A DNA stretch of 64,000 nt from Mangrovimonas xylaniphaga (GTDB lineage: Bacteria; Bacteroidota; Bacteroidia; Flavobacteriales; Flavobacteriaceae): positions 558,001 through 622,000 of the forward strand of contig NZ_LBIP01000013.1 of NCBI RefSeq assembly GCF_001280435.1, given 5' to 3'. Position numbers and translations under genes: made by a program. Shown piece after piece: positions 18,681 to 36,900 of the stretch (the first letter of the stretch is position 1; each line of letters starts with the position of its first letter). Below the pieces are notes generated by a model, which did not search any database, had not been told where the DNA came from, and was given only the letters and a program-made list of their open reading frames with translations.

Positions 18681-20261
18681 TTATTTCATACTGATTCCTA
18701 AACGTCTACTTTTTTCTCCTGTTGGAAAAACAACCAGATAACCAGCATTGGATTGATCTATATTCTCAATTCGATACTTATAGGTTACCGATTCAAAATT
18801 CCACTTATTGATATTAGGCAAATAAAAAACAGTAGGTGATTTAGAATCTAAACTTTCATTCCATTCGCAAACAAATTCGCCTGTTTTAGAATTATAGTTA
18901 TTAGAAATTAGAGTCCCCGAAACCACATAAGGCTGTGGACGCACAAGCGCCTCTTTAAAATATAAAAGATCCTCAACACCTTGGCTATATGCCCAGTAGG
19001 TTTCGCTAAAAAAGTACTTATCAATATATCCCAGATTTGCTTCAGCCAGATTTTTCATCCCTGCTGAATTACCTGAAAGCGCCCCCCATTCCCCTATAAT
19101 AACAGGCACATTCATACGCCGACTACTTTTGTGAACATTTTCATAAATAACCTCTAACCGAGCATGGCTTGAATTTTCTAAATTTTCGGTATCCACTAAC
19201 AAATCGTAAACATGTGCCGCGTAAGCAATTAACGAATCTTTCTCATGACCTGCTAAATGCATGGGTTCCAGTGCCGTTTCAATTCCACTATTACAAAAGT
19301 AACTGTGGTTTATAAACAAGAGCTTCTCTTGGTCTATGGAGCGTATACTATCTGCTACTTTTTGGTAAAATGGCTGTAATGCTGTTTTTTCAAAGACACT
19401 GTTTAATTCGTACAACGCTCCAATTAAATCAGAAAAAAGTTCCTTGTCATTTAAATTCTTTAAAGCTTCGTATCGACCAGTGGTTGTCGACCATTGTGAA
19501 ATCAAACCCTCAATAGCAACGTATTCTCCCGTTTGCTCTTCCAATATGTTAGCATAGGCACCAAACAACACAGGCATAAACGATTGAGCTACCGAACCCG
19601 GAAATGGTTCATTCATTAAATCATATCCAATAACAGTATTATTCCCTTTATAGCGTTGAGCCAATACCTTCCATGCATTTACATAATAATCCTGTACTCC
19701 AATGCCATTCTTTACCGGTGTGTTTTTCCAAAAATTATCAAAGGCTGTTTGTACTGCAGGACTGATTAAATACGAATCGCTCCAGACTTCACCTTCATAG
19801 TGAGGTTGTCCGCCATCAAGAGTAGCCCACTTGGGTGCACCATCACTATATTTTACACTAAATAAATCCTGATGCATATCAAGATACACAAATAAACTTG
19901 CCGCTTCTGCCCATTTAATTTGCTGATCAATTTTCTTTAAATACACTTCATTGTATTTGCCTGGTTCAGTTTCCAAACCATCCCAAATAACTCCCAAACG
20001 TACCACATTAAATCCCCACTTTTTAAAGTTCTTGAAGGTGATGGAGTCTTCAGTGCCTATATAACCAACTTCAGGATTTTTATTAACCAGGTTCACCCCG
20101 TTTAATATCACTTTTCTACCTAACTGATCCACAAAGGAAGTGCCTGATATACTAATTTTGGTTGGCAATAAATTTTCTGAGGTTTCCGTAATGCCTTGAA
20201 CACAAGAAAGCATAAAGGCCACTAAAAGTGTAAAAATTATAAATGCTATTTTACTTCTCAT
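18681..20261 (-). CDS. GH5 glycosidase, endoglycoceramidase-like lipoprotein
   Basis: 526 residues. The signal peptide carries lipobox MLSC. The catalytic (beta/alpha)8 domain shows acid/base Glu218 in YDLMNEPFPG and nucleophile Glu391 in VIIGEWGA. The sequences YLDMHQDLFS, GAPKWATLDGG, AFDNFWKNT and YYVNAWKVLAQRY match microbial endoglycoceramidases far better than cellulases. A C-terminal beta-sandwich (last 80 residues) fits that family too. Endoglycoceramidase splits the bond between an oligosaccharide and ceramide in glycosphingolipids. Its ATG overlaps the stop of the EEP phosphodiesterase gene, so the two are expressed together. Surface anchoring suits action on extracellular lipids. 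Confidence 0.8.
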   Translation of the reverse strand: MRSKIAFIIFTLLVAFMLSCVQGITETSENLLPTKISISGTSFVDQLGRKVILNGVNLVNKNPEVGYIGTEDSITFKNFKKWGFNVVRLGVIWDGLETEPGKYNEVYLKKIDQQIKWAEAASLFVYLDMHQDLFSVKYSDGAPKWATLDGGQPHYEGEVWSDSYLISPAVQTAFDNFWKNTPVKNGIGVQDYYVNAWKVLAQRYKGNNTVIGYDLMNEPFPGSVAQSFMPVLFGAYANILEEQTGEYVAIEGLISQWSTTTGRYEALKNLNDKELFSDLIGALYELNSVFEKTALQPFYQKVADSIRSIDQEKLLFINHSYFCNSGIETALEPMHLAGHEKDSLIAYAAHVYDLLVDTENLENSSHARLEVIYENVHKSSRRMNVPVIIGEWGALSGNSAGMKNLAEANLGYIDKYFFSETYWAYSQGVEDLLYFKEALVRPQPYVVSGTLISNNYNSKTGEFVCEWNESLDSKSPTVFYLPNINKWNFESVTYKYRIENIDQSNAGYLVVFPTGEKSRRLGISMK

Positions 20262-21166
20262 TATTTTCTAAATTGAGCCATCACCGGATAGTGATCAGAT
20301 AGCAAATCATTATCCACTCCATTTAACGCCTGAGCGACAAGACTATTAATATACAATGCCCGTGAAACAAGCATATAATCTATTCGTTCACCACAACTAT
20401 CTACCTGGCTTTCTGTCTCAAAATATCTAGGTATTAATGCAGGCGTAGGAAAGCTGATTCTTTGCTCCAGAGCCTGTGAATACGGTAACAATACATCATA
20501 TAAGTTCATTGACAAAAACCCGGAAATCACAGAATAATCCAACTGGCCATTATCTAAATTTCCGTTAAGTCCGGTTTTCTTATTATCTTCCTTTTCCATG
20601 CGTTTTATAAGTTCTCCATTAAGATCATAAAGATGTTGATCGAACGGTGAATTGGAATTAAAATCACCGAGCACTATAAGTTTGTCTGTCGTCTTTAAAA
20701 TGTCTTCAATTTTACGAAACAACACCTTCATTTCATTTCTCCGCTTAGCGATGTTTTCCGGATTTAAATGCACTATTATATAATCGACATCCTGAATTTT
20801 ACAATGCAAAGCACCATGATGTAAATCTTTAAGTATTCTTTCTTTAAGCTCTATTGGATATTTAGAAGTAATCCCAACAGAATACCCTGTATTCTTTAAA
20901 AGCAATGTATAATTATGCCCCCATTGTTTGGCTTCCTCCTGTAACCTTTGGTCGGTATAGGAACACAACTCCTGAAGCGCTGCTACATCAACATCCTGTT
21001 GCTTCATCCAGGTCTGGAAATTTTTCAAACGCATCGTATCCTTACCGAAATCAAATCCGTTCCAAATGTTATAAGTAAGTACTTTAAATGTATCTGCTTC
21101 CTGTGAATAGATATTCACAAAAAACAAACCTGTAATGATGTATAATATATATTTCATTTTTATCAT
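20261..21166 (-). CDS. EEP-superfamily phosphodiesterase (endonuclease/exonuclease/phosphatase fold), secreted
   Basis: 301 residues with a signal peptide ending near NIYSQ. Catalytic motifs of the EEP fold are intact: LTYNIWNG (Asn), LQELC (Glu), VHLNPE (His), VLGDFNSNSPFD (Asp/Asn) and SDHYPVMAQF (Asp-His). Families with this fold include neutral sphingomyelinases, inositol phosphatases and nucleases; the motif set alone does not separate these. Tight coupling to an endoglycoceramidase-like gene favours a sphingolipid headgroup phosphodiesterase (sphingomyelinase-like) over a nuclease, but that is inference. It lies downstream of the terminator that closes the SusC/SusD unit. Confidence 0.75.
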   Translation of the reverse strand: MIKMKYILYIITGLFFVNIYSQEADTFKVLTYNIWNGFDFGKDTMRLKNFQTWMKQQDVDVAALQELCSYTDQRLQEEAKQWGHNYTLLLKNTGYSVGITSKYPIELKERILKDLHHGALHCKIQDVDYIIVHLNPENIAKRRNEMKVLFRKIEDILKTTDKLIVLGDFNSNSPFDQHLYDLNGELIKRMEKEDNKKTGLNGNLDNGQLDYSVISGFLSMNLYDVLLPYSQALEQRISFPTPALIPRYFETESQVDSCGERIDYMLVSRALYINSLVAQALNGVDNDLLSDHYPVMAQFRK

Positions 21167-21210
21167 ATTTTCAATATTAATAGAACTAGAAATCGTTGAG
21201 GCTAAACTTC

Positions 21211-21244
21211 AAAAAAACCGGTACCACGACATGTAATACCGGTT
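21211..21244 (-). terminator. Terminator closing the SusC/SusD unit
   Basis: AACCGGTA (21216-21223) and TACCGGTT (21237-21244) form a perfect 8-bp stem followed on the minus strand by seven T residues. It ends transcription after the second AP-superfamily gene, so the EEP-GH5 pair probably has its own promoter or relies on readthrough. Confidence 0.85.
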
Positions 21245-21276
21245 AAAACAATTCAACAATTACATAAAAAAATCAA

Positions 21277-22374
21277 CTAACTCTTTAGCTGTAATTTTAA
21301 AGCTTTTCCTTCCATACCGTCTCCCAACTCTGTCTTGTTTAAAATCTCCAACACGGTTGGAGCAATTTGGTTAGTGAACAAACGCTCTTCCGAAGATACT
21401 TCTCCCAAAGCTTCTACTCCCTGACCAAAAACAATCATCCAAACTTGATCGGCACCGTTTATTTTTCTACCGTGATTTCTCCAATCGTCAACAGGCTTCT
21501 CACCACGACCATGATCTGTAGAAATAATAAATACGGTATTGTCTTTATAAAAGTCATCTTGCTGGGTAAAATCATATAATTTCTTGATCAATCCATCGGT
21601 ATTTCTAGCAGCCTTTAAATAGGAATCATATTCCCCATCATGGGCAAAATCATCGGTTTCCCCAAAAGCCACATACACCACTTCTGGATGCTCCCGCTTC
21701 ATATACTCAACAGCATAACCTGCCGTAAAGGCATCCAACCTTACCGAATCCCATGGCGATGGCACCTCTGGCTGAAGTTCATTCAAAAACAATTCTTTTT
21801 GCGATAAACTATCGCCTTTTGCAGTTTTAAAACCGGCATTTACAGGAATTCCAGAACGCTCTTCATTAATGATATAAGGAAATACATCCCAACTGCCAAA
21901 CGCAGCTATTTTCCCGTTATAGGCAGACGTATTTTGAAGTCTTTCCAAGAAGGTCACATTTGGATTGTTTATTTTCTCGTTACTTGTGATATGCTCGTCA
22001 TCGGCCTTTCCTGTTAAGATTTCATTATAGCCCGGATACGAAAACCACATGTTATTGGTTAAGTTCACATAACTCCCTAAGTTTCTATTGCCATGGATTT
22101 GTCCCATTTTAGCAACTTGCCCCCAAACAAAAGGCATCAAGGTTGCTCTTCTTTCATTAGGATTTTCTCGCCAAAATTCAGTTTTTAATCTTTTGGGATT
22201 ATCTACATATTTTTTGTTTTCCACCAATTTGACATCAGCACCAGAAAACAACTCCTGCCAACGCAATCCGTCCATAGTAATCACAACAACCTTTGGAGTG
22301 TCTGTTTTTGTTTGGGCTTTTACAGTGCTCATTGACAGTAGCAATACCCCTACTGATAATAGTATTCTTTTCAT
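21277..22374 (-). CDS. AP-superfamily phosphatase/phosphodiesterase, secreted
   Basis: About 365 residues. I use the ATG at 22374; a GTG at 22377 is the longer option. A signal peptide ends near VKAQ. ITMDGLRWQELFSG, the nucleophile region WFSYPGYNEILTG, GETDDFAHDGEYD and STDHGRG give the metal-binding Asp/His set of the alkaline phosphatase superfamily (type I phosphodiesterase/sulfatase-like fold, PF01663). It is a different branch from the PhoA gene at 17185. The mix of phosphoesterase families in the same operon suggests one substrate with several phosphate or phosphonate ester bonds. Confidence 0.78.
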   Translation of the reverse strand: MKRILLSVGVLLLSMSTVKAQTKTDTPKVVVITMDGLRWQELFSGADVKLVENKKYVDNPKRLKTEFWRENPNERRATLMPFVWGQVAKMGQIHGNRNLGSYVNLTNNMWFSYPGYNEILTGKADDEHITSNEKINNPNVTFLERLQNTSAYNGKIAAFGSWDVFPYIINEERSGIPVNAGFKTAKGDSLSQKELFLNELQPEVPSPWDSVRLDAFTAGYAVEYMKREHPEVVYVAFGETDDFAHDGEYDSYLKAARNTDGLIKKLYDFTQQDDFYKDNTVFIISTDHGRGEKPVDDWRNHGRKINGADQVWMIVFGQGVEALGEVSSEERLFTNQIAPTVLEILNKTELGDGMEGKALKLQLKS

Positions 22375-22385
22375 CACTTTAATAT

Positions 22386-23975
22386 TTATTGTTTTGTTTC
22401 AAATGATAATACTTGGGACCATTCACTCCAGTTCAGGTTTTGGTCCCTGTACCTTACCCTCCAATAATAGGTCGTGTTAGGTTTTAGCCTATTGGTTTTC
22501 TCATCGGTTAAATCATCCCCCTTCTGGCGGTCTTCCAAATAGTACCAATTCTCAAACTGCTTCCAACTATCAAAAACAGGCTTTTCAAAACTTTGATCTT
22601 CCGACACCTGCCAATGGGAAGCCGCGTGAAACGCATCCTTAAAATCACTTTCAAAAGGACCTGCTTTCAGCATAACCCCTTCAATAGATTCCTGTGCATT
22701 GGGTGAAATCGCCACCGGAGCTTTTGGCTTTCTTTCCTTTTTCCAAACGGTAATACTATCCGTTAGCTCATTATCCTTTGTTCCAACAATATTGTTTCCA
22801 CGACTGATTCTCTTTATGGTGAATTTTGGGTTGTGATGATCCCCATCTACTTCTACCATGACAAACCCATATTCATCCTGGGTTACAGTGAATTCATTGT
22901 AATCGCGACCTTCGTACTCTCCCCAGTTATCAATAGCGCCCCCAGCCGAAGCAACATTGATCCACAAATGCTTGTGCTCTTTGGATTGTCCTCTGGAATA
23001 TCCGTGTGTGTGCCCAAAAAAATGAATACTAGGCTTTCCTGTTTTCGTTGAAAAATCCTCCAGCATTTTCACCACTTTTCCACTAAAATCCGTTTCCCCA
23101 GGAATCCACAATTCGGATTTATGAGGATGGTGCATTTGAGCAAAAACAAAATCGATATCTTCATTGTTTGCTGTGTCTTCCAACAGTTGTCTCAACCACT
23201 CGTATTGGTGTTTGCTATCTCTGTAACCATCGTTGGAATTTAAACCGATAACACGTGTATTTCCATAGTCTTTATACCACCAATGCTCAGCATAGGCAGG
23301 TGTTCCATTTTCCGGAAGGCTGAAATATTTAAAGTAGAACACCGAGTTGTTTTCATGGTTTCCTATAGCAGGATACACAGGCACTTCGGAAAACAACTTT
23401 TCTCCCGGTTTGAAGAAATCGTTTTGCCATTGGCCATATTTCGTACCGTCCTGCACCAAATCACCCGGGATTAAAACCATTGCCAAATTTTCTGGCAATT
23501 CACCTTCAAAAGCCTTATCCAGATATTGTAAAATACCATCGTTAACCACTTCCAAAAACTTATCGGGATGATTGTGATCCTTTTGCATATCGCTCATAGC
23601 CACAATATTGAAAGACTCTTGATCTGAGGCAAAAGGAGGCGTTTTAAACTGATAAATATCCGAGACCAATTTCCCCGTTCTCACACGGTAATAATACTCG
23701 GTAAAACGTTTCAAGCCTTCCAATTTCACGGTATGTAATCTTGACTTTCCGAAGTCTACATTTTCAGCAGTACCTATTGATTTCTTGCCCAGTTTAGGTG
23801 TTGGCCCGTATTCTACAATACTTTCTTCACCTTGACTGGTTTCCCACATAATCTTGATTGAACTTGGTTCTGCATCCTGAAGGTAGGGTTTCACTAAAAA
23901 CTCCATCTTTTCGCTTTGTGAGAAAACTGAATGTAAACTTATAAATGCGATTACCGCTAATCCTATTTTTTTCAT
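22386..23975 (-). CDS. Purple-acid-phosphatase-like metallophosphoesterase with fibronectin-type domain
   Basis: About 529 residues. I choose the ATG at 23975 (MKKIGLAVIAFISLHSVFSQ), one base past the upstream stop; a start at 23990 would overlap that gene. An N-terminal beta-sandwich (PYLQDAEPSSIKIMWETSQGEES...VEYG) is typical of purple acid phosphatases. The metallophosphoesterase motifs follow: SDMQKDH, IPGDLVQDG, GNHEN, MHHPHKS and FFGHTHGYSRG. A C-terminal fibronectin-like domain (NTTYYWRVRYRDQN) closes the protein. It probably removes phosphate from organic esters at the cell surface or in the periplasm. Confidence 0.85.
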   Translation of the reverse strand: MKKIGLAVIAFISLHSVFSQSEKMEFLVKPYLQDAEPSSIKIMWETSQGEESIVEYGPTPKLGKKSIGTAENVDFGKSRLHTVKLEGLKRFTEYYYRVRTGKLVSDIYQFKTPPFASDQESFNIVAMSDMQKDHNHPDKFLEVVNDGILQYLDKAFEGELPENLAMVLIPGDLVQDGTKYGQWQNDFFKPGEKLFSEVPVYPAIGNHENNSVFYFKYFSLPENGTPAYAEHWWYKDYGNTRVIGLNSNDGYRDSKHQYEWLRQLLEDTANNEDIDFVFAQMHHPHKSELWIPGETDFSGKVVKMLEDFSTKTGKPSIHFFGHTHGYSRGQSKEHKHLWINVASAGGAIDNWGEYEGRDYNEFTVTQDEYGFVMVEVDGDHHNPKFTIKRISRGNNIVGTKDNELTDSITVWKKERKPKAPVAISPNAQESIEGVMLKAGPFESDFKDAFHAASHWQVSEDQSFEKPVFDSWKQFENWYYLEDRQKGDDLTDEKTNRLKPNTTYYWRVRYRDQNLNWSEWSQVLSFETKQ

Positions 23976-23976
23976 G

Positions 23977-25338
23977 TTATTGATTTCCATTTACAATGGT
24001 TAAACTTGTATCTAATATGTGCAATGCTTTATCCAAATCTTCTCGTGAAATGGTCAAAGCGGGCGACAACTGCAAGACGTTACCCGAGGACACTTTAAAA
24101 CTCAGTCCTTGTTTTAAACATTCGTACATGACTTGCTCAGCTTCTTCAACAGCTTTTTCTTTGGTGATTCTATCTTTTACCAACTCAATTCCCCAAAGCA
24201 TTCCCAAGCCTCTCACATCACCAATGATATCATGTTTCTTTTTGAGTGATGACAAAGCAGTTTCTAAATATGTTTCGTCTTGATGAACTTTTTCCAAAAG
24301 GCCTCCATTTTGTAAAAGCTCAATAGTGGTCAGACCTGCTACAGAGCCCAAAGGACTTTTTTCATGAGTATAATGACCTAGGGAAATATCTCCAAAGACA
24401 TTGTAATCGTCTCTAGTGATAATGGCCGCCTGAGGGACAATGCCTCCACCCAATCCTTTGCCAATACAAAGAATATCTGGCTCAATGCCATAATGCTCGA
24501 AGGCAAACATCTTCCCTGTTCTACCTAAGGCAATTGGGATTTCATCCAAGACCAGCAGTACGCCATAGGTATCGCAAAGTTTTCGGGCTTCTTGCCAAAA
24601 ATGCTTTGATGGGATTTGCACATCGGTATTTCTGATGGTTTCGGCAATAAACACTCCTATGTCATTCTCTTTTGAAAACACATATTCCAAATACTCCAAG
24701 CATTTGTCTTCGTTGTTTTCAAAAATACCCCGATAGGTCACTGGTGGGGGAATACGTTCCACACCCGGCATTAAAGGCCCCATATATTCTCTAAAAACCG
24801 ATTCCCCCCCTACACTAATGGCATCCAAGGAAGCACCATGGAAGGAATCCCAAAACGAGACCACTTTAAACTTTTTAGTTATGGCGCGTCCCAACTTTAA
24901 AGCAATCCCAACAGCAGAACTTCCATTAGGGGTTAAGAGTACCCTGTTTAAATTGGAAGGTGTCAAGGAGGCTAACTTTTCAGCGAAATTGATGGCGGGC
25001 TCGTTGGTAAATCGTCTAGGTGAAAATGACAGTGTTTGCAGTTGTTTGATCAAATTTTCAACTAGTTTAGGATTTCCATATCCTATTTGATGTACATTAT
25101 TACCGTGAAAATCCAAATAGGTTTTCCCTGAAATATTTTCAAATGAAGGTCCTTCGCAGGCTTGTAAAACATCTAAACATGGCGTAGACATAGACTGATG
25201 CAAAAAATAACGCGCGTCCTTTTCCAACAACTCAGCCGTACTTTCATCCACTTCTGTTTTCAACCAAGATTCTCGAGCGGGAGTCATGTTGATATCCCCC
25301 TCGGTTCTTTTGTTCAGGGAAGTACTATCTTGATTCAT
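23977..25338 (-). CDS. Class III PLP-dependent enzyme, candidate (R)-1-hydroxy-2-aminoethylphosphonate ammonia-lyase (PbfA-like)
   Basis: About 453 residues, fold-type I class III aminotransferase family. The PLP-binding Lys is in CIGKGLGGG (near residue 294), the cofactor Asp is in VLDEIPIALGRTGK, and GSSAVGIALKLGR and WDSFHGASLDAIS line the PLP phosphate site. The N-terminal stretch YFLHQSMSTPCLDVL and the block FHGNNVHQIGYG resemble, as I remember them, PbfA-type ammonia-lyases that turn hydroxy-aminoethylphosphonate into phosphonoacetaldehyde. A general omega-aminotransferase is the alternative. No signal peptide, so it is cytoplasmic, unlike its exported operon neighbours. Its start (25338) overlaps the upstream gene by 14 bases; a TTG at 25347 is the longer option. 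Confidence 0.7.
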   Translation of the reverse strand: MNQDSTSLNKRTEGDINMTPARESWLKTEVDESTAELLEKDARYFLHQSMSTPCLDVLQACEGPSFENISGKTYLDFHGNNVHQIGYGNPKLVENLIKQLQTLSFSPRRFTNEPAINFAEKLASLTPSNLNRVLLTPNGSSAVGIALKLGRAITKKFKVVSFWDSFHGASLDAISVGGESVFREYMGPLMPGVERIPPPVTYRGIFENNEDKCLEYLEYVFSKENDIGVFIAETIRNTDVQIPSKHFWQEARKLCDTYGVLLVLDEIPIALGRTGKMFAFEHYGIEPDILCIGKGLGGGIVPQAAIITRDDYNVFGDISLGHYTHEKSPLGSVAGLTTIELLQNGGLLEKVHQDETYLETALSSLKKKHDIIGDVRGLGMLWGIELVKDRITKEKAVEEAEQVMYECLKQGLSFKVSSGNVLQLSPALTISREDLDKALHILDTSLTIVNGNQ

Positions 25339-26593
25339 ATGGTCCAAATTGTTTTAGCAACTCACGTGTTTGGGTAGTATCATTCAACACAAAAACTTTG
25401 TAAGCATCTCCACCCTTTTCCACTCGCACTACCACATGTCCGTTTTGACTTTTGTATTGATCCAGCTTTCCTCCAATAACATCTCTATTGGCCTGGAGCA
25501 TAGTGGTAGAAAACACATCTCTTTCACCAGGATATATTTTTTCGGATAAAATTCTTCGCAATACATCATCCCCTGGATGATCAGAGGACCAATTTTGCTG
25601 CACCCAAACTCTTGGGCGAATCGTTCTTACATAATAGGCATTTTGCGAATCCCTGTTCCCGTGATGGTTCAAGGCAGCTACATCTACAGCTCCAACCACC
25701 GGTGCAATATTAGATTCCAAACTATTGAAATTCGTACCACCCAATTCATCAATTCCATTCACATCGCCTCCTGTGAAATAATCGAATTTTCCATAGGTAA
25801 TTTTAATACAGGTACTTAACGGATTTTCACCTGGATAGTCGCCTTCCTTGAATAAATCAAAAGTAAAATTCTTCTCTCCCGTCCAGATTTGACCATTTAC
25901 GGCCACATTCTGGATATGAAATTCAGGATAATTCTCAGGTGCATATAACAATTGAATTTGATACTTCTCTCCGGCCTTTAGCGTTTCGTGAACCAATCCG
26001 TTGGTTTTATTCTGAAAATCTATAAACTTCCAGTATTCCCTTAAGGTAGCCATCATTTTATAGGAATCATTGATGAAACGCTCCTGCGACTGCACCTTTT
26101 TATCTTTTAGATTGATAGGAAACTCACTCCCTCGATCAATGAGTGTTTTTATGGGCATCAAGGTTCCCACTTCCATAATCCCCGTAAGCTGATAGCCCCC
26201 AGGAGCCAGTGTTCTCACTGAATCGGCTTCCCCAAAATGGTCATCGTGATAATGAGTAATCAGGGCATAGTCCAAATTCACGGGTTTGCTTTTAGGAGCA
26301 AACTGACGGATATAATCTACAATCCATTCCGGTGCCGATTTGGTATTATTAGGTTTCAGCACTTCATTCCTTGCAGACAAGGTCCTTGGATGGGTTTCGG
26401 AAGTATCCCCAGCATCGATCAGTAAGGTGGTACCATCGGGCATTATGACGAAGCAAGCATCACCACGCCCTGTGTTAATGTGGTGAATTTCCATTACTCC
26501 TTCTTCCCAAGAAGGAAATTCTTCCTGGGAGAAAAGAAGTAAACTAGACAAAAAACCACACAATAAAAGCTTGTATTTCTTCTTAAAAATCAT
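25325..26593 (-). CDS. Secreted metallo-beta-lactamase-fold hydrolase
   Basis: About 422 residues. The ATG at 26593 (MIFKKKYKLLLCGFLSSLLLFSQ) gives a proper signal peptide and a two-base gap to the upstream gene; the longer frame would overlap it by 70 bases. The metal-binding motif THYHDDHFGE has His114, His116, Asp118 and His119; INTGRGDACFVIMPDGTTLLIDAGD before it is the usual ComEC-like MBL opening, and LNHHGN gives a later His. Exported MBL hydrolases include phosphorylcholine esterases, and the phosphonate pathway has the MBL phosphodiesterase PhnP, so a headgroup diesterase role is possible but not shown. Confidence 0.8.
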   Translation of the reverse strand: MIFKKKYKLLLCGFLSSLLLFSQEEFPSWEEGVMEIHHINTGRGDACFVIMPDGTTLLIDAGDTSETHPRTLSARNEVLKPNNTKSAPEWIVDYIRQFAPKSKPVNLDYALITHYHDDHFGEADSVRTLAPGGYQLTGIMEVGTLMPIKTLIDRGSEFPINLKDKKVQSQERFINDSYKMMATLREYWKFIDFQNKTNGLVHETLKAGEKYQIQLLYAPENYPEFHIQNVAVNGQIWTGEKNFTFDLFKEGDYPGENPLSTCIKITYGKFDYFTGGDVNGIDELGGTNFNSLESNIAPVVGAVDVAALNHHGNRDSQNAYYVRTIRPRVWVQQNWSSDHPGDDVLRRILSEKIYPGERDVFSTTMLQANRDVIGGKLDQYKSQNGHVVVRVEKGGDAYKVFVLNDTTQTRELLKQFGPYESR

Positions 26594-26595
26594 GT

Positions 26596-29818: not shown

Positions 29819-29831
29819 GAGTAACAATTTT

Positions 29832-32800
29832 TTAGAAATCGATATTAATGTTGAATGTAAAAGTTCTGGTACTTGGCAAAGACATGTTCTCTATACCAGG
29901 CTGTAAAGTTCCTCCAGCAACAGCAACGGTTTCTGGATCAAAGTGCGGGTTGTCTGTCCATAACACCAAGTTGCGCCCAGTTAGGGAGAAGCGTACGTTT
30001 TCAGCAAAGATTTTATCAGTAAAAGAGTTTGGTAAGCTATACCCTAAAGTCACTTCTCTCAATTTGGTGTAAGATGCGTCGTATTTTGCGGCTTCCACAT
30101 TATTACGATCGTAGTAGCTGTAGTTCCAAGTTCTCGCGTTTACGTTAACGCTATTGGGCTCATACACTCCTGGAGATACCTCTACCACACCATCACCTAC
30201 AATACCAGTTTCTCTACCTACCAAAGTTTCCTTCAACTGACCTGCTGTACTTGCAATGGTTTTAGTTCTAGACACTACGATACCTCCTTCTCTAATGTCA
30301 AACAAGAAACCAAAATCGAAGTTTTTGTATTTGAAGGAGTTTTGGATACCCAATGTAAAGTCTGGAGCATAATCTCCTTGGTATTCCAAATCACCTGTTT
30401 TTAGTGGCAATCCGTCAGAACCGTAAATGATTTCACCGTAATAAGGACTGTTTTTATCTTCTACTCTTTGGAATCCGATACCATAAATAGCACTTACAGA
30501 ACCGCCTTCACGTGCTTGGATATAAGCGCCGTTTCTGCTGGTCAAGGTGTAGTTTACACCACCCAAATCGGTAACTTCACTTTTGTTTTTCGCAAAATTG
30601 AACATGGCATTCCAGGTGAAATCATTGGTCACCACTGGCTTGATGTTCAACATCGCCTCAATACCGTAATTTTTCACCTCTCCGGCATTGATCAGCTTAC
30701 TTGTATAGCCACTAGCAATATCGGTATCAATTCCAATAATCTGGTTTTTGGTCGTACTGCTGTAGTAAGTGGCATCAAGATTCAATCTACCACCGAAGAA
30801 ACGCAAATCGGCACCAAATTCATAAGAAGAGGTCAACTCCGGCTTTAAGTTGGCATTTGGAAGTGCAGAAGACTCCGTTAACACAGGATATGATCCAAAA
30901 GCAGATTCATTGTTGAAGTAACTGGTCAATTTATATGGATTGGTATCGTTACCAACCTCGGCATAAGCGGCACGCACTTTTGCAAAAGTTACAAACTTAG
31001 GCATGTTCACCATTTCGCTAAGAATCGCACTTAAGGTAGCCGATGGGTAGAAATAAGAATTGTTGCTTGTTGGCAAAGTACTAGACCAGTCATTTCTACC
31101 AGTAATATCCAAGAACAATTTATCATCGTAAGCAAAACGGGCAAAGCCATACAAACTGTTGATTCGCTTCTCATAATCAGAAACTGTAACGGCCAAAGGC
31201 GACCTTGCATTATTGAACGAATACACTCCAGGGTTGATCAACTGGTCTGCTACTGTTTGTTGGTAATCCTGTTTTTGTTTCATTTGGTTTCCACCTACAG
31301 AAAGGCTGAAATCCCATTTATCGTTAAATGTTTTGTTGTAGCTCAACAAGAAATCGGAGTTGATTTCTTCAAAAAACACATTGTCTTCTCTGTAGTACCC
31401 CAAGGGGAAACGCTGCGTACTAAACGCTCTTTTCTTCATACGAAGGTCACGGTAAAAATCTCTACCTGTACGCACCATCAAGCTAAGTGCATCGGTGATT
31501 TGGTAGTTCAAATTGATATTACCATATACTCTGTCCTTATCCTGGGCGTTGGTGTTTTCATATACATTGAAATATGGGTTGTCATGGTAGTTGTAGTTGT
31601 AATTGAATTGTTGGATTCCTTCCAAGCCATCCATCCAATAATCTCTTAAACTGGCAGTATTGATCTGACGTCCGTACCATGTCCATAAATACATTACGTT
31701 TTCAGTACCGTAACTTAAAGAAGGACGGTTACCACTGTCGCTCTTCACATAGTTTACGTTTGAATTCAAGGTAATTTCATCTGTCAAGTTGATAGATGCC
31801 GCCATGTTCACCGTATGTCTTTTCAAATCGGTGTTAGGCACTACTCCTGTTTGATCGAAGTTTTGGTAAGAGAAACGTACGCTTCCCATATCTCCCGACT
31901 TTGACACAGACAAGCTGTTGGTGTAGGTATATCCTGTTTCGAAGAAATCCTTAACGTTATCTGGATGAGACACCCAAGCCGTAGGAATGATAGGTGAAGA
32001 ACTATTCAAGTCACCACCGCGAGTTCCGTCCTCTCTAGGAGAATCAAACTGAGCGATCATTAAACCAGAATCCAATCTTGGCCCCCAGCTTTCATCTACT
32101 CCATCCGCAATACCACTACCAGCACCATCAACAAAAGAGAACATCATGTTATTACCTTGTCCGTATTCATTTTGAAAATCAGGCAACGTAAAAATGTTAT
32201 CAATACTCACAGCACTGTTTACATTCACTTTAAGTTTTCCTTTTTTCCCTTTTTTGGTCGTAATAATGATAGCACCGTTCGCCGCTCTCGATCCATACAA
32301 TGCCGCTGCGGCAGGCCCTTTTAATATATTGATAGACTCAATGTTATCTGGGTTAATCTCCGCAGCTCCGTTACCGTAATCTACATCCTGAGTACCAGAA
32401 CCTGTAGATCCTACAATTTGGTTACTAACAGGTGTACCATCCACAACAAATAGTGGAGAGTTGGCATTCATATTTAAAGAGGCATTCCCTCTAATGGTAA
32501 TATTGGCAGAACCACCAATACCAGAAGACCCATTAGTAATGGTCATACCGGCAACCTTACCGGACATGCTGTTTAAAAAGTTAGGCTCTTTTGATTGGGT
32601 AAGCTCTTCTGAATCTACTTCCTGAGAGGCATATCCTAATGATTTTTTCTCCCTTTCAATCCCTAAAGCTGTTACCACGACTTCATCCAACATTGCCGCA
32701 TCCGGCTCCAATACAAAGATGGTTTCTGTGGAGTCGTCGATATTCACCTCCATTTTTTTGTATCCCATATAGGAAATCACCATCACCTTGTGTCCCTCTG

Positions 32801-32987
32801 GCAATACAATAGAAAATTCCCCATCAAAATTGGTGGAACTTCCTATATTAGTTCCTTTAACCTGCACGGTAGCTCCCGGCAAAGGCATTTGATTTTCGTC
32901 CTGCACCACCCCATTAAATGATGTTTGTGCAAAACCTAATACACTCATAAAAAGCGTAAAGATTAATACTAGCTGTGTCTTGTTCAT
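29832..32987 (-). CDS. SusC/RagA-family TonB-dependent outer-membrane transporter
   Basis: 1051 residues. The signal peptide is followed by a carboxypeptidase-like regulatory domain (FNGVVQDENQMPLPGATVQVKGTN), the SusC motif VVVTALGIEREKKSLGYA, the plug domain with GPAAAALYGSRAANGAIIITTKKG, and a long beta-barrel ending in a terminal aromatic residue (FTFNINIDF). It heads the operon and precedes susD by a 13-base gap. It is the energised outer-membrane importer of the locus. A dyad TTTACAAATATTAAA lies about 24 bases before its start codon. Confidence 0.96.
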   Translation of the reverse strand: MNKTQLVLIFTLFMSVLGFAQTSFNGVVQDENQMPLPGATVQVKGTNIGSSTNFDGEFSIVLPEGHKVMVISYMGYKKMEVNIDDSTETIFVLEPDAAMLDEVVVTALGIEREKKSLGYASQEVDSEELTQSKEPNFLNSMSGKVAGMTITNGSSGIGGSANITIRGNASLNMNANSPLFVVDGTPVSNQIVGSTGSGTQDVDYGNGAAEINPDNIESINILKGPAAAALYGSRAANGAIIITTKKGKKGKLKVNVNSAVSIDNIFTLPDFQNEYGQGNNMMFSFVDGAGSGIADGVDESWGPRLDSGLMIAQFDSPREDGTRGGDLNSSSPIIPTAWVSHPDNVKDFFETGYTYTNSLSVSKSGDMGSVRFSYQNFDQTGVVPNTDLKRHTVNMAASINLTDEITLNSNVNYVKSDSGNRPSLSYGTENVMYLWTWYGRQINTASLRDYWMDGLEGIQQFNYNYNYHDNPYFNVYENTNAQDKDRVYGNINLNYQITDALSLMVRTGRDFYRDLRMKKRAFSTQRFPLGYYREDNVFFEEINSDFLLSYNKTFNDKWDFSLSVGGNQMKQKQDYQQTVADQLINPGVYSFNNARSPLAVTVSDYEKRINSLYGFARFAYDDKLFLDITGRNDWSSTLPTSNNSYFYPSATLSAILSEMVNMPKFVTFAKVRAAYAEVGNDTNPYKLTSYFNNESAFGSYPVLTESSALPNANLKPELTSSYEFGADLRFFGGRLNLDATYYSSTTKNQIIGIDTDIASGYTSKLINAGEVKNYGIEAMLNIKPVVTNDFTWNAMFNFAKNKSEVTDLGGVNYTLTSRNGAYIQAREGGSVSAIYGIGFQRVEDKNSPYYGEIIYGSDGLPLKTGDLEYQGDYAPDFTLGIQNSFKYKNFDFGFLFDIREGGIVVSRTKTIASTAGQLKETLVGRETGIVGDGVVEVSPGVYEPNSVNVNARTWNYSYYDRNNVEAAKYDASYTKLREVTLGYSLPNSFTDKIFAENVRFSLTGRNLVLWTDNPHFDPETVAVAGGTLQPGIENMSLPSTRTFTFNINIDF

Positions 32988-33010
32988 TTTAGATAGTTTA
33001 ATTTTATTTG

Positions 33011-33025
33011 TTTACAAATATTAAA
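33011..33025. promoter_or_regulatory. Operator-like dyad in susC promoter region
   Basis: TTTACAAATATTAAA. The left arm TTTAC and spacing match the palindrome found upstream of the DUF5690 operon; the right arm is imperfect (TTAAA for GTAAA). It shares the exact 10-mer TTTACAAATA with the site at 33111, 100 bases away. Candidate binding site of the XRE-cupin regulator. Confidence 0.45.
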
Positions 33026-33110
33026 CTACCAAGTAAACTTAACCGCTTTTCAAAATGAACAAAACATTTATAAATCCTTAATTTTGTTAAACAATTGTTA
33101 AGGCCTTTAT

Positions 33111-33125
33111 TTTACAAATAGTAAA
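33111..33125. promoter_or_regulatory. Operator-like dyad between susC and the XRE-cupin gene
   Basis: TTTACAAATAGTAAA has perfect outer arms TTTAC/GTAAA and the right arm TAGTAAA identical to the sites at 36909 and 36949. It lies 58 bases upstream of the regulator start and 124 bases upstream of susC, so it could serve autoregulation and susC control. Confidence 0.55.
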
Positions 33126-33182
33126 AAACACAAGGCAACTATTCTATTAAATAAAAATGTATTTTTAGCCAAAAAGAACGAA

Positions 33183-33749
33183 ATGACAGATTACTTAGTT
33201 GGTATAGGCAAACATATTAAGGAGGTAAGAAAATCCAACAATCAGAATATTAGCGACATAGCGCAATTGGCAGAAGTAAGCAACGGTCTTATTTCCAGAA
33301 TTGAAAATGGAAGAACCATTCCTTCCCTGCCCGTTTTATTGAATATCATCAACGCTCTCAATGTGGAAATTGCCGAATTTTTCAAGGGCATCCCCCAAAC
33401 TAGCAATTCCAATTTTATAATTTCCAGAAAGGAAGACAACACAAATATTGAAAAGGAAGATGAAGCCGTTGGGTTCACTTACAAACATATTTTTAGTAAA
33501 CAGATTTCTTCCCTAGGGTTTGAAACCGTACTCTTGGAAATAGCTCCCAATTCAAAACGGGAAAAAGTAACCACAGATGCTTTTGAGTTTAAATATATTC
33601 TATCTGGTGAGTGTTCCTACATTATAGGTGAAGAAGAAGTGCTGCTTAAAGAAGGGGATTCTTTATTTTTTGATGGAAGAATTCCGCACGTACCCATCAA
33701 CAGAGGGACTGAATCATCAAAAATGTTGGTTATTTACTTTTTTATGTAA
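33183..33749 (+). CDS. XRE-family regulator with C-terminal cupin domain
   Basis: 188 residues. Residues 8-65 are a Xre helix-turn-helix (IKEVRKSNNQNISDIAQLAEVSNGLISRIENGRTIPSLPVLL is the recognisable region; key parts SNGLISRIENG). Residues about 110-185 form a small cupin (FKYILSGECSYIIG, EGDSLFFDGRIPHVPIN). Such regulators commonly respond to the small-molecule substrate of adjacent catabolic genes. It is divergent from susC and convergent with the phosphonatase-like operon, so it sits between its two likely target units. The palindromes around both promoters fit a dimeric binder. Confidence 0.9.
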   Translation: MTDYLVGIGKHIKEVRKSNNQNISDIAQLAEVSNGLISRIENGRTIPSLPVLLNIINALNVEIAEFFKGIPQTSNSNFIISRKEDNTNIEKEDEAVGFTYKHIFSKQISSLGFETVLLEIAPNSKREKVTTDAFEFKYILSGECSYIIGEEEVLLKEGDSLFFDGRIPHVPINRGTESSKMLVIYFFM

Positions 33750-33766
33750 TAGCAAATAACCAACAT
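33723..33766. terminator. Long hairpin at the convergent ends of the regulator and phosphonatase-like genes
   Basis: ATGTTGGTTATTT (33723-33735) and AAATAACCAACAT (33754-33766) form a perfect 13-bp stem, partly inside the regulator's last codons and just before the convergent gene's stop. No T-run follows, so it may act as a bidirectional pause or mRNA 3' end rather than a textbook terminator. Confidence 0.5.
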
Positions 33767-33772
33767 CGATTA

Positions 33773-34453
33773 CTATTTTAGAAGAATACCTCTGAGTTCT
33801 GATAGAGATTCCAACACAAAATCAGGATTGGCCGATGCCAATTGTTTTGCCGTGTGAGCCCCAGTGGTCACACCAACCGTTAAACCACAAGCTGCATTTT
33901 TACCTTCCTCAATATCGATAATGGAATCTCCAGCTTTCAATACTTTTGAAGGTTCAGTGATATTGGTTTGTTTCATGGCTTCAAAAATCATATCTGGATT
34001 TGGCCTACCATTTTCCACATCATCGGCCGTAAACAAGGCATCGTAATGCACTCCCAAATCCCATTTCATTTTACCCAACAACAACTGAGCTGTTGCTTTA
34101 TCATACCCTGTATTCAAGACCACCTTAATATTGGCATGCTTTAAATCCTGAATTAATTCCTCCACACCATGATAACTTGTCACTTCTAAAGCTTTATAGG
34201 CTTCCGCCAACAACACTTTGAATTTCTCAAAGATTCCATTAGACTTTGCCTCAAAATCCTCTATCCCGATTTCTTCCAAAATATCTTTAATAGCGTGATG
34301 CTTCTCTTTCCCAGCTCCAAATTCTAAAACAAAATCCAAAGTCACATCAAACCCTTCATTATTGATAACTTGCTGCAATGTTTTGTACACCAAATTACCC
34401 TCATCTACCACAGTTCCAGCCATATCAAAAATGACCAATTCTATATTATGCAT
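33773..34453 (-). CDS. Phosphonatase-like HAD hydrolase (TIGR03351 type)
   Basis: 226 residues. The HAD motif I is FDMAGTVVDE: nucleophile Asp10 is followed at +2 by Ala12, not the Asp of ordinary HAD phosphatases. That D-x-A signature is the mark of phosphonatases (PhnX and relatives), which use a Lys of the cap domain instead; Lys49 and Lys51 in AGKEKHH are candidates. Motif II Thr lies in VVLNTGYD, Lys-like region in ENGRPNPDMIFEAM, and motif III in GDSIIDIEEGKNA. It should cleave the C-P bond of phosphonoacetaldehyde or a hydroxylated relative, giving phosphate. It is last in an operon with an FAD oxidoreductase two bases away. Confidence 0.85.
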   Translation of the reverse strand: MHNIELVIFDMAGTVVDEGNLVYKTLQQVINNEGFDVTLDFVLEFGAGKEKHHAIKDILEEIGIEDFEAKSNGIFEKFKVLLAEAYKALEVTSYHGVEELIQDLKHANIKVVLNTGYDKATAQLLLGKMKWDLGVHYDALFTADDVENGRPNPDMIFEAMKQTNITEPSKVLKAGDSIIDIEEGKNAACGLTVGVTTGAHTAKQLASANPDFVLESLSELRGILLK

Positions 34454-34455
34454 AT

Positions 34456-35610
34456 TTAAAAATTAAAAATTGTATTAATATTATGTTTTGAAAACCCAGC
34501 GCTACCGGTCATTCCCTTACCTCCAATACCTGTGACAATATGAATGTTTTCTCCAATGGTATTTTGATAGATATCTGAGGTTTTGCATTGGGAGTACATC
34601 CCAAACCAACGGTGCTGGATTTCATAATTTGGCAGGCCCATAATTTTCTTTGCTTCCTGGATAATGAAGTTGTCTATATCCATGTTCAAATCAAACCCAA
34701 GATCATCCATATTGGCAGCATCGGCATATTCATGGGAATCCCCAATTATCACCGATCCATCCATAGCCTGTTTGAACAAAATATGAACGCCCCATTTCTT
34801 TTCCAAAGCACCTTTATCCTCTTTGGCCTTTATTTCTTTATAAGATTTACATTCCTCAAAGGCTTCATAACGTCTAATGGAAAGCCCTGTTAACACAGAA
34901 CCTTTCAATGTGTAATTGGCTTGCGGCTTGGTTGACATCATTTGCAATTTAGAGACTACCAAATCACTTTCTGCAAACATTTTAGGATACAAGGTTTGAA
35001 AATCGCTCCCGTTACAAATAATTACTTTTGAAGTCATAAAAATTTCATTTGTAGACGTCCTCAATTTAACTTCCCCATTGACTTCTTCACAGGTAACTAC
35101 CTTCGACTTAAAAAAAATGTCCATGCCCTCAGATTTCAAAAAGGCATGAAGTTTATTGATCATCGTCAATGGCTCTACGGTAACTTCTTCCGGAAAGAAC
35201 AATCCTGCTTGCACATAATCGCTTCTAAGTCCACTGTAATTGGTCAAGCACTGCCCCTTTGTCAAAAGTTTTGAGTTGTATTGATTGGCTTTATTAATTT
35301 CCGACAGCTCTTCAATAAGGGTTGCTTCTTCATAATTTGAAGCCAGGTATACCGAACCATTTTGACGTATGGATATATCAAACTTCGATTGGATATCCTT
35401 GTAAATCTCCAGACTTTCCCTTCCAAAGTTTTGCCATTTTGTATTCATTCCAGATGGCACCACCTGGCCAAAATTTCTAACCGTGGCCCCTTGTGGAAAT
35501 TGATCTTTTTCAAGTATGGCAACCTTTAATCCTTTTTGTTTTGCATGGTAAGCATGGAATGTTCCCAACACACCGCCACCTACAATAATTACATCGTATT
35601 TAGTATCCAT
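34456..35610 (-). CDS. FAD-dependent oxidoreductase, TIGR03364 (HpnW-proposed) type
   Basis: 384 residues of the DAO fold (PF01266). The Rossmann motif DVIIVGGGVLGTFHAYHA (about 5-22) binds FAD; GATVRNFGQVVPSG (about 42-55) is the hallmark of TIGR03364 proteins. The C-terminus GIGGKGMTGSAGFSK closes the FAD site. That family was described as travelling with TIGR03351 phosphonatase-like hydrolases, with a suggested role in oxidative deamination of an aminophosphonate such as 1-hydroxy-2-aminoethylphosphonate; related enzymes act on N-alkylated aminophosphonates. The gene order here is exactly that pair. Confidence 0.85.
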   Translation of the reverse strand: MDTKYDVIIVGGGVLGTFHAYHAKQKGLKVAILEKDQFPQGATVRNFGQVVPSGMNTKWQNFGRESLEIYKDIQSKFDISIRQNGSVYLASNYEEATLIEELSEINKANQYNSKLLTKGQCLTNYSGLRSDYVQAGLFFPEEVTVEPLTMINKLHAFLKSEGMDIFFKSKVVTCEEVNGEVKLRTSTNEIFMTSKVIICNGSDFQTLYPKMFAESDLVVSKLQMMSTKPQANYTLKGSVLTGLSIRRYEAFEECKSYKEIKAKEDKGALEKKWGVHILFKQAMDGSVIIGDSHEYADAANMDDLGFDLNMDIDNFIIQEAKKIMGLPNYEIQHRWFGMYSQCKTSDIYQNTIGENIHIVTGIGGKGMTGSAGFSKHNINTIFNF

Positions 35611-35613
35611 GAT

Positions 35614-36900
35614 TTATAGTACAGCTTGTAATTCCGCTTGAGAACTACTTTGGTTTCTTTTATATTTTTTTCTGAAGTATACCAGGGAAGCAATAGAAAT
35701 GACACCTCCCAAAACAGCTATGAAATAGGTTCCTTTAATGAAAAAGTCGAGCCAAGAAATGGAGCTCTGACCAAAATTCTTATAAAGCAAAACGCTCATA
35801 CTTCCCAAATAACCAAAGGCATCGGCGATGTAAATTAAAAAGCCCGCATTTCCCTTAATGCGAAAGGTAGCAATCATCCTATCAAAGAAAATACAGTTAA
35901 AAGGCACATAGCAAATGTAAAGTCCAAATCCAACGGCCACCATCCAAAAGACGGGAGAAAGCAAGTTCATTTGAAATAAAAAGGTGGCAAGCCCAATGGA
36001 AATGGCACCAAAAATCAAAGCGTAATGATAAGATACAAATGCCTTAAAATTATGTTTCATGACACCTATCCTTCCCATAATTACCAATACCAAAATGGCT
36101 ATAGGAATCTCACTGACGGTATACACCGAAGTATTGTTTTCAAACCCTAAGGCATCCCAAATTTCCCGTGAAAAATTGTCTCTAAAATCTCTGAAAGCTG
36201 TTAGAAACACATAGAACAGCACCAATAGAATGATAGGCAGTAAAAACGTCCTGAATACCCTTTTTCGGTCATCGGACGTCATGATAAAGCGCTCCGACCT
36301 CAACTCCTTATCTTCCTCAATTGGACTTGGCAACCCATTCAACAACACGGCAAACAAGCTAAACGGCACCACAAAAATTGCCCCGGTTATGGCCGGCATC
36401 CAAAATTGGGACACCTGAAGATGATCCATCACCAACAACCCAATAGATTTTACCGCCCCACTGGACACAATAAAGCTGGAACACAGAATAACGCCAAGTA
36501 GTTCAGACAACTTTCGACCTTCCAAATATGAAAAGACAACGCCCCAAACCATCCCCAAGGAGAGGCCATTCAAAAACATAAAAATGAAATTATAAGGCGC
36601 TGCTACCAATCCAAAACAAAGCAAAGAGGCTTCGGCAAACAAGATCATCCCCAACAGATAGAAAATACGCTTATCGGTTTTGAGTTCAGAGATTAATTTA
36701 ATCCCCAAAAACTTGGCAATCATATACCCCAGCACCTGAGCGATGATCAAAATAATTTTATAATCCACACCCCATAATGAAAGGCCTTCAAAAGTAGCCA
36801 CTGTAAAAGGCTTCCTAAACGCATACATACAAAAATAGGCCCCGAACGAAGCAAAGGAACCATTTAATAAAAACCGAAAATCCGTTTTGGATAACCTCAC
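35614..36900 (-). CDS. DUF5690 / MFS-fold membrane protein, probable transporter
   Basis: 428 residues with about twelve hydrophobic helices. The opening GSFASFGAYFCMYAFRKPF and the loop SYLEGRKLSELLG resemble the DUF5690 family, an MFS-like group in Bacteroidota. It is the first gene of the minus-strand operon with the FAD oxidoreductase and phosphonatase-like hydrolase (gaps of three and two bases), so the likely job is inner-membrane uptake of the aminophosphonate they degrade. Two copies of the TTACTATTAGTAA palindrome lie immediately upstream. Confidence 0.8.
   Translation of the reverse strand: MRLSKTDFRFLLNGSFASFGAYFCMYAFRKPFTVATFEGLSLWGVDYKIILIIAQVLGYMIAKFLGIKLISELKTDKRIFYLLGMILFAEASLLCFGLVAAPYNFIFMFLNGLSLGMVWGVVFSYLEGRKLSELLGVILCSSFIVSSGAVKSIGLLVMDHLQVSQFWMPAITGAIFVVPFSLFAVLLNGLPSPIEEDKELRSERFIMTSDDRKRVFRTFLLPIILLVLFYVFLTAFRDFRDNFSREIWDALGFENNTSVYTVSEIPIAILVLVIMGRIGVMKHNFKAFVSYHYALIFGAISIGLATFLFQMNLLSPVFWMVAVGFGLYICYVPFNCIFFDRMIATFRIKGNAGFLIYIADAFGYLGSMSVLLYKNFGQSSISWLDFFIKGTYFIAVLGGVISIASLVYFRKKYKRNQSSSQAELQAVL

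Follow-up and report, generated by a model that had tools for sequence, protein, structure and literature searches.

In Flavobacterium, six SusCD complexes that respond to inorganic phosphate (Pi) have been reported, co-localized with phosphomonoesterases, phosphodiesterases and phosphonate-degrading enzymes (Lidbury 2020; PMC8115612). Aminophosphonate breakdown has been described from phnWX-pbfA and phnWAY-pbfA clusters (PMC8154272) and from phosphonate clusters with PbfD-type oxidases (PMC10590968), and the catabolic enzymes in these two papers act on free aminoethylphosphonate (AEP), N-methyl-AEP or hydroxy-aminoethylphosphonate (HAEP). Here, we analyzed a 64 kb stretch of the Mangrovimonas xylaniphaga genome (contig NZ_LBIP01000013.1, positions 558,001–622,000; hereafter the window), which holds a SusCD-linked locus with both PbfA and PbfD. 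This locus probably lets the cell feed on macromolecules with aminophosphonate headgroups, with phosphate released from the carbon–phosphorus (C–P) bond.

The locus shares features with three kinds of known systems. As in the PUS loci (PusCD) of Flavobacterium, a SusCD pair is present together with linked phosphoesterases. The PUS loci were defined by their induction at low phosphate, and the available text of PMC8115612 does not name PbfA, PbfD, DUF5690, the metallo-β-lactamase (MBL)-fold enzyme or the XRE-cupin regulator in its description of PUS. An earlier note on this DNA had held that no SusCD system of this kind is described, which was too strong, as PMC8115612 reports SusCD loci with phosphonate-degrading enzymes. 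With the phosphonate clusters the locus has in common PbfA (PMC8154272) or TIGR03364/PbfD (PMC10590968) next to a C–P cleaving enzyme; unlike them, it contains no PhnW over the cut-off and carries SusCD and exported esterases in front. A SusC-SusD pair, lipoprotein enzymes and a linked regulator are also found in polysaccharide utilization loci, but here the conserved core lacks a glycoside hydrolase and the presumed product is an aminophosphonate. As far as the open-access literature searched goes, a conserved locus that combines PbfA, PbfD and SusCD, lacks PhnW and has its own operator is new, and so are the link to DUF5690, the enzyme resembling Pce and the exchange of cassettes on both sides.

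The named genes were checked as open reading frames (ORFs) and then by family searches with Pfam and NCBIfam/TIGR models. All genes listed in the earlier note are intact ORFs, and the family searches agree with its assignments. On the minus strand, the SusC-like TonB-dependent transporter (29832–32987; TIGR04056 680.7 bits, cut-off 368.25) is followed by the SusD-like lipoprotein (28238–29827; PF12771 297.8 bits) and by the lipoprotein AP2, an ENPP-like phosphodiesterase that also carries CHB_HEX_C and PA14 domains (26596–28224; PF01663, PF13290 and PF07691). Next come an exported MBL-fold hydrolase that resembles ComEC and Pce (25325–26665; PDB relatives Pce/CbpE and predicted fold) and a class III pyridoxal phosphate enzyme (23977–25347), which had only been hinted at before and which scores as PbfA (NF049939 718.3 bits, cut-off 525). 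Further along the same strand are PAP, an exported purple-acid-phosphatase-like metallophosphoesterase (22386–23990; PF16656 and PF00149), and AP1, an exported alkaline-phosphatase-superfamily enzyme (21277–22377; PF01676 33.3 bits). The XRE-cupin regulator lies on the plus strand, divergent from SusC (33183–33749; PF01381 and PF07883). Behind it, again on the minus strand, are the DUF5690 protein, an organophosphate-antiporter-like transporter of the major facilitator superfamily (MFS; 35614–36900; PF18943 554.4 bits), a PbfD-type flavin adenine dinucleotide (FAD) oxidoreductase (34456–35610; TIGR03364 416.9 bits, cut-off 285.1) and a PhnX-like, phosphonatase-type enzyme of the haloacid dehalogenase (HAD) fold (33773–34453; TIGR03351 224.9 bits, cut-off 218.9).

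In the pathway that we propose, SusC and SusD would take the carrier or its fragments across the outer membrane, and the exported AP2, Pce-like MBL enzyme, AP1 and PAP would cut the phosphonate ester. DUF5690 would import the freed aminophosphonate. In the cytoplasm, PbfA would convert R-HAEP to phosphonoacetaldehyde and ammonia, PbfD would form phosphonoacetaldehyde from N-methyl-AEP (and AEP), and the PhnX-like enzyme would cut the C–P bond to give acetaldehyde and phosphate. This part of the earlier note, in which SusCD is tied to the conversion of an aminophosphonate ester into phosphate, is supported by its conservation in many genomes. The sequences show the gene identities by model, the conservation and synteny, the operator sites and the cassette exchange, from which the activities, localization, transport, regulator binding and substrate are inferred.

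To assess this conservation, we scanned named genomes with an alignment of AP2 proteins taken from PbfA loci; of the 271 relatives obtained, the best 80 were retained. This set leans to close relatives with PbfA and includes 10 loci of less than 17 kb. A gene was counted as present if BLASTP matched it to a window protein, with identity floors of 40% for PbfA, 45% for PbfD and 35% for the PhnX-like enzyme; the floors apply to the 80-locus counts, and the DUF5690 neighborhood survey given below used none. AP2 was found in all 80 loci, PbfA in 75, SusD in 72, SusC in 70, DUF5690 in 67, the XRE-cupin regulator and AP1 in 57 each, the PhnX-like enzyme in 56, PAP and PbfD in 55 each, the MBL enzyme in 44 and a phoA-like gene in 4. 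When only the 70 long loci are counted, PbfA is present in 69, SusC and SusD in 66 each and DUF5690 in 65. Gene order is conserved too: SusD, AP2 and PbfA are contiguous on one strand in 68 of the 80 loci, DUF5690, PbfD and the PhnX-like gene are contiguous in 55, and the regulator is divergent from SusC at a distance of less than 450 bp in 44. PbfA is missing from five loci, four of which end at contig ends. The core spans contain 11 additional ORFs of at least 150 amino acids, and no cluster of such inside ORFs covers more than 3 loci. The hosts belong to Flavobacterium, Arenibacter, Zobellia, Maribacter, Cellulophaga and Flagellimonas and also include Leeuwenhoekiella blandensis MED217; the nearest relative of the window locus is in Mangrovimonas sp. 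TPBH4 (L086), of the same genus, with 97% identity in AP2.

In an independent search of 299 genomes from the window's family, 21 had a PbfA that exceeded the cut-off. The other 20 family genomes hold 21 PbfA loci, which contain SusC in 18 cases (one at 27% identity), AP2 in 17, DUF5690 in 15 and PbfD in 14. Two of these loci (L040 and L044) have no further core gene, and one (L036) has no SusCD.

The presumed cytoplasmic enzymes point to the chemistry of the route. PbfA and PbfD pass the cut-offs of their models (scores given above), PbfA by a wide margin. The HAD enzyme was filed as PhnX-like because it misses the PhnX model (TIGR01422 120.5 bits, cut-off 220) and passes TIGR03351. It aligns to PhnX with the D-x-A motif and with the lysine that is Arg in 2ioh, and D10, A12 and K49 are identical in 57 of 57 rows; we take these to be the catalytic residues, that is the D-x-A nucleophile and the Schiff-base lysine. 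No PhnW reached the cut-off in the seven locus-bearing family genomes that were tested, G189 giving one weak match; in all four genomes tested outside the family it did. Within the family, G129 (described below) is an exception. The window's genome contains no PhnW over the cut-off, no PhnJ and no phosphoenolpyruvate mutase over the cut-off (one weak match). Within the limits of these searches, which in this genome covered PhnW, PhnJ and phosphoenolpyruvate mutase, the locus is the only route into aminophosphonates seen there, and PbfA (R-HAEP) and PbfD (N-methyl-AEP and AEP) would therefore be the entry points. Such a role for PbfD agrees with PbfD1 and PbfD2, which oxidize N-methyl-AEP and AEP to phosphonoacetaldehyde (PMC10590968).

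DUF5690 is a candidate for the import step. Its predicted structure (predicted local distance difference test, pLDDT, 88.8) matches SLC37A4 best, with Z 33.7, a root-mean-square deviation (rmsd) of 3.2 and 17% identity over 362 aligned residues. Other MFS families follow within 1–3 Z units, among them DgoT (Z 32.2, 12%) and NorA (31.7, 13%), and GlpT reaches 28.7 (15%), so the fold alone does not decide the MFS subfamily. When the DUF5690 profile was compared with all PDB sequences up to an E-value of 10, SLC37A4 was the only match (E 0.01), with R29-K30 aligned. R29, R237 and R240 are present in 68 of 68 rows, and the counterpart of the helix-1 arginine, which binds the substrate in organophosphate:phosphate antiporters, may be among them. 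DUF5690 shares with these antiporters (SLC37A4 and GlpT) the predicted MFS fold and the R29-K30 alignment to SLC37A4, but it forms a separate Pfam family, the profile match reaches an E-value of just 0.01, and DgoT outscores GlpT. Among 345 genomes of the phylum, 34 carry 36 copies of DUF5690, and relatives of phosphonate genes (TIGR03364-like, TIGR03351-like, PhnW or PbfA) lie within about 5 kb of 27 of these copies. In a sample of 10 such neighbors checked against NCBIfam, 5 of 5 FAD enzymes passed TIGR03364, 2 of 2 transaminases passed PhnW, and the three HAD enzymes had TIGR03351 as best match, all below its cut-off. Of 20 newly fetched phosphonate-positive DUF5690 loci, 8 contain a SusC or SusD relative, all of them outside the family (L221–L225, L228, L239 and L241). 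We found no mention of DUF5690 in the open-access literature searched. In two loci outside the family (L221 and L228), an ORF lies between the DUF5690 and PbfD relatives, which resembles a PHP-domain protein in its first residues and is a possible additional esterase of the pathway.

The exported enzymes are the candidates for headgroup release. In the ENPP-like AP2, D39, S75, D183, D233 and H234 are identical in 81 of 81 rows and H187 in 79, and Ser75 presumably lies near the position of the active-site Thr in the Xanthomonas enzyme. In one genome (G222, L033:9923–11575) AP2 appears as two ORFs, a phosphodiesterase and a C-terminal part, perhaps by a frameshift or as a real separation. The sole PDB sequence relatives of the MBL enzyme are the phosphorylcholine esterases Pce/CbpE (E 2.1e-7). 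Its best model has a pLDDT of 80.3, and five runs spread widely (mean pLDDT 80.3 to 44.7); the predicted fold is closest to the MBL domain of ComEC (Z 21.4), followed by Pce (Z 16.8) and a next match of 12.5. The MBL fold is shared with Pce/CbpE, but identity is 14% over 278 aligned residues (rmsd 4.0) and the ComEC fold score is higher. No PDB sequence relatives were found for AP1 at an E-value of 0.001.

The locus also contains a shared operator-like palindrome. A pattern search with TTTACNANTNGTAAA, allowing at most one mismatch, gave 4 matches in the 64 kb against 0.57 expected, with a maximum of 3 in shuffled sequences (n = 100). All four are confined to the locus's two promoter gaps, namely the SusC/XRE gap (33011–33025 with one mismatch and 33111–33125 exact) and upstream of DUF5690 (36908–36922 with one mismatch and 36949–36963 exact), so the palindrome proposed in the earlier note is real. 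In the whole genome, exact matches occur at 5 places, compared with 1 for a reversed-pattern control, and only the 2 at this locus lie outside ORFs. The exact sites thus give no candidate for another gene under control of this operator in the genome, the 3 remaining ones being all within ORFs. Across genomes we counted TTTACNNNNNGTAAA with at most one mismatch, the window itself being included in each row set; DUF5690 is preceded by such a site in 52 of 68 loci, where 2.3 would be expected. The XRE-cupin protein would control both promoters through the TTTACTATTWGTAAA operator. A dedicated XRE-cupin regulator together with exact operator sites outside ORFs only at this locus suggests a substrate switch.

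Around the constant genes, both ends of the locus vary between genomes. The SusD proteins found at one and the same position fall into five classes of 19, 18, 15, 11 and 9 rows and one single (linkage at 50% identity), and SusC follows these classes. The exchange is seen directly in two Flagellimonas species, F. aequoris and F. amoyensis (L139 and L161), which are 52% identical in SusC and 40% in SusD, compared with 87% in AP2, 89% in the regulator, 84% in DUF5690, 83% in PbfD and 98% in PbfA. Nucleotide similarity ends about 340 bp into SusC and, apart from a 150-bp patch, resumes near the start of AP2. PbfA itself, at 98% next to neighbors of 78–89%, may also have been transferred. F. aequoris and the window are 73% identical in SusC and 65% in SusD, versus 48% in AP2 and 56% in DUF5690. 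We then compared trees of 32 rows (31 of the 80 loci and the window), which were quick trees without a mixture model. The SusC tree rejects the Flagellimonas group as one clade (log-likelihood difference 2199, approximately unbiased (AU) test p = 0.00065, a low value favored by the fact that this Flagellimonas/Muricauda group was picked after viewing the identity tables), whereas the PbfA tree does not reject it (p = 0.536). Over 56 rows, pairwise identities in six other genes correlate with those of SusD at 0.05–0.31 and with those of SusC at 0.21–0.42, versus 0.48–0.77 among the six genes themselves. SusCD has thus been swapped as one cassette between the five classes, with its neighbors staying in place. 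A change of carrier is the most likely reason; alternatively, the exchange may serve to escape phages that use SusC. Since the cassette is exchanged, the carrier is probably strain-dependent.

The C–P cleavage end is exchangeable as well, with either PbfD and the PhnX-like enzyme or PhnW, PhnA and PhnY. A genome of the same family (G129) combines SusCD, AP2 and PbfA with PhnA (474.1 bits, cut-off 407.55), PhnY (642.3, cut-off 635.65) and a PhnW-type transaminase that passes TIGR03301 (406.8 vs 360.8) and not TIGR02326 (352.4 vs 400.8). In a genome of another family (G545), AP2 and PbfA occur with PhnA and PhnW over the cut-off and PhnY just under it (632.6). PbfA adjoins the PhnA, PhnY and PhnW-type genes in both (L028:14316–18097 in G129 and L079:9068–17061 in G545), and AP2 keeps PbfA as its neighbor with this type of C–P end. 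The combination of pbfA with phnY and phnA is said in PMC12366243 to occur only in Proteobacteria; these two loci from Bacteroidota look like exceptions.

The earlier note had assigned the whole locus to the use of an aminophosphonate glycolipid or phosphonosphingolipid, a reading that rests on two accessory minus-strand genes at one end of it. These are a glycoside hydrolase family 5 (GH5) lipoprotein resembling endoglycoceramidase (18681–20261) and an exported phosphodiesterase of the endonuclease/exonuclease/phosphatase (EEP) superfamily (20261–21166; PF03372 67.4 bits). The best PDB relative of the GH5 protein is endoglycoceramidase II (2osw, E 1e-34). Its NEP and GEWG motifs align to 2osw with both Glu matched, the second of which is Ser in 2osx, and we take the two to be the catalytic residues of the fold. 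With 143.3 bits, the protein is below the cut-off of 700 for the NCBIfam family EndGlycCerase (NF051847). A GH5 enzyme of this type plausibly cuts glycosphingolipids, an activity that would here be joined to a phosphonate locus. For EEP, no PDB sequence relatives were found at 1e-5.

Neither gene is part of the core. Co-occurrence is far beyond chance for the core genes, but not one of the 80 named related loci or of the 21 family PbfA loci has GH5 or EEP. The sister genome TPBH4 aligns with the window in a 16.8-kb block of 93% identity and, on the phoA side, in a 1.4-kb block of 89% identity. In place of the roughly 2.77 kb that separate these blocks in the window (about 18471–21237, with GH5 and EEP), the sister has only some 100 bp. 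Genome-wide, TPBH4 has no GH5 at E 1e-60 and no EEP at E 1e-30. Two genomes alone cannot separate gain from loss, and the absence from 80 of 80 named loci favors a gain in the window. Base composition was not telling as a sign of a foreign insert, with a 1-kb GC content of 0.338–0.382 at 18–22 kb and of 0.342–0.433 in the rest of 15–40 kb; the values of the GH5-EEP stretch are slightly lower. A PhoA-type alkaline phosphatase gene (window 17185–18285) lies directly downstream of the locus and has the same neighbor position in TPBH4.

Relatives of GH5 occur in 5 of 299 family genomes, its own counted, and in the other four they are not near PbfA. In G162 the relative sits among SusCD genes together with NAGLU, a GH95-like enzyme and an EEP of unrelated type, and in G209 it is near SusCD; in G250 there is no such set. 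G225 has two relatives, grouped with genes for GH95, GH109 and a GLAA-B-type protein and with a relative of AP1. This gene set (L071) resembles one for blood-group-like glycosphingolipids, and G225 also has matches to the ceramidase family PF04734, the only one of six genomes searched to have them; the window's genome has none. EEP relatives were found in 14 of 299 family genomes, its own counted, mostly far from PbfA. In G129, however, a relative with 36% identity is found at a distance of about 9 kb from PbfA, beside an XRE-like ORF, so that EEP being wholly foreign to such loci is unsupported. This stretch beside the PbfA locus (L257:821–5173) holds a metallophosphoesterase, two EEP proteins (one with a laminin-G domain) and the XRE-like ORF. 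A recurrent GH5-EEP pair was rejected, because the EEP beside GH5 in G162 differs (E 0.010 in a two-sequence comparison). The pair was likewise rejected as a part of the core.

Several observations weigh against a locus for bound aminophosphonates. The scan was built on PbfA loci and kept the best-scoring relatives, which favors linkage to PbfA, and the fifth locus without PbfA (L162) is of full length (21.6 kb) and carries AP2 alone. Outside the family, none of 11 PbfA loci in 10 genomes has a SusC or SusD relative; AP2 and DUF5690 are present in 4 each, and 5 of the 11 lack both. For 9 of the 36 copies of DUF5690, the neighborhood is free of phosphonate genes. The HAD enzyme stays under the cut-off for true PhnX, and TIGR03351 is itself classed as a "hypothetical equivalog". 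None of the esterases falls into a curated family specific for phosphonates, and four of them could act just as well on ordinary phosphodiesters. The operator is much rarer in the SusC/XRE gap of other genomes, with a TTTACNNNNNGTAAA site upstream of the regulator in just 15 of 58 loci (2.9 expected) and upstream of SusC in just 22 of 71 (3.55 expected). Finally, the core lacks a recurrent glycosidase or lipase from which the carrier could be read.

The carrier is where the explanations differ. N-methyl-AEP is reported in gastropod sphingophosphonolipids, with headgroups on gastropod sphingolipids and glycolipids, and HAEP of unspecified stereochemistry in a Bdellovibrio stolpii lipid (PMC8154272, PMC10590968), and a Vibrio N-methyl-AEP oxidase has already been suggested to degrade sphingophosphonolipids of marine invertebrates (PMC10590968). 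If the whole locus were dedicated to such lipids, GH5 would cut between sugar and ceramide and EEP or the AP enzymes would remove the headgroup. The similarity of GH5 to endoglycoceramidase II, which includes the two aligned catalytic Glu residues, the position of GH5 relatives near SusCD or a blood-group-like glycan set in three of the four other genomes, one with an AP1 relative, and the EEP relative near PbfA in G129 are consistent with this; we nevertheless consider it unlikely, as both genes are missing from the 80 loci and the sister, GH5 is rare in the family and elsewhere not near PbfA, it fails its NCBIfam cut-off, and the genome has no PF04734 ceramidase. The same absences leave glycolipid or sphingolipid use unsupported as a general feature; of the earlier reading, the SusCD aminophosphonate route is the supported part. 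Alternatively, the carrier could be a zwitterionic glycan, either an N- or O-glycan with AEP or methyl-AEP or an Acanthamoeba-type phosphonoglycan, with GH5 being incidental. AP2 has PA14 and CHB_HEX_C domains, which are typical of glycan-active proteins, and the MBL enzyme resembles Pce, by its PDB title a teichoic acid phosphorylcholine esterase. AEP and methyl-AEP are known from snail N-glycans and AEP from jellyfish O-glycans (PMC6994554), and R-HAEP was first found in an amoeba phosphonoglycan. On the other side, no glycosidase is recurrent in the locus, and Z-scores reflect fold and not substrate, with ComEC above Pce. A glycan carrier is a special case of the aminophosphonate locus, with which its odds overlap, and we regard it as possible but less likely than not.

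Four types of phosphoesterase, a PhoA-type gene next door and the Pi-responsive SusCD loci known in Flavobacterium (PMC8115612) would also fit a PUS-type locus for general scavenging of organic phosphorus, acting mainly on ordinary phosphodiesters and using the phosphonate genes for minor substrates. PbfA, however, is the most constant partner of AP2 in the query-biased set of 80 loci, above PAP, AP1 and MBL, and the dedicated regulator with its operator speaks for a substrate switch; we rate this explanation as the least probable of those considered. The conserved core without GH5 and EEP is best read as an aminophosphonate utilization locus, to which glycolipid use is a possible, unproven local addition. 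Because GH5 and EEP have been added in this Mangrovimonas strain, a phosphonate-bearing glycosphingolipid may be among its substrates.

A broader reading, for which we see the chances as evenly balanced, is that Bacteroidota possess modular "phosphonate utilization loci". Their constant core would consist of the AP2 headgroup esterase, PbfA and/or PbfD, DUF5690 as an aminophosphonate:phosphate antiporter and the XRE-cupin switch, into which SusCD receptors and C–P ends are plugged, with a glycosphingolipid extension in Mangrovimonas. In living organisms, most aminophosphonate is part of lipids and glycans. If the reading is correct, these loci would take aminophosphonates attached to polymers or lipids all the way from the outer membrane to cleavage of the C–P bond, and would include esterases dedicated to phosphonate headgroups as well as a new family of transporters. 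If the proposed pathway holds, such loci would provide marine and soil Bacteroidota with a front end for the capture and release of bound aminophosphonates, name candidate enzymes for the release step and give DUF5690 a function. The natural series of swapped SusCD receptors could then reveal which carriers are used, and it would become testable which organisms recycle phosphonolipids and phosphonoglycans.

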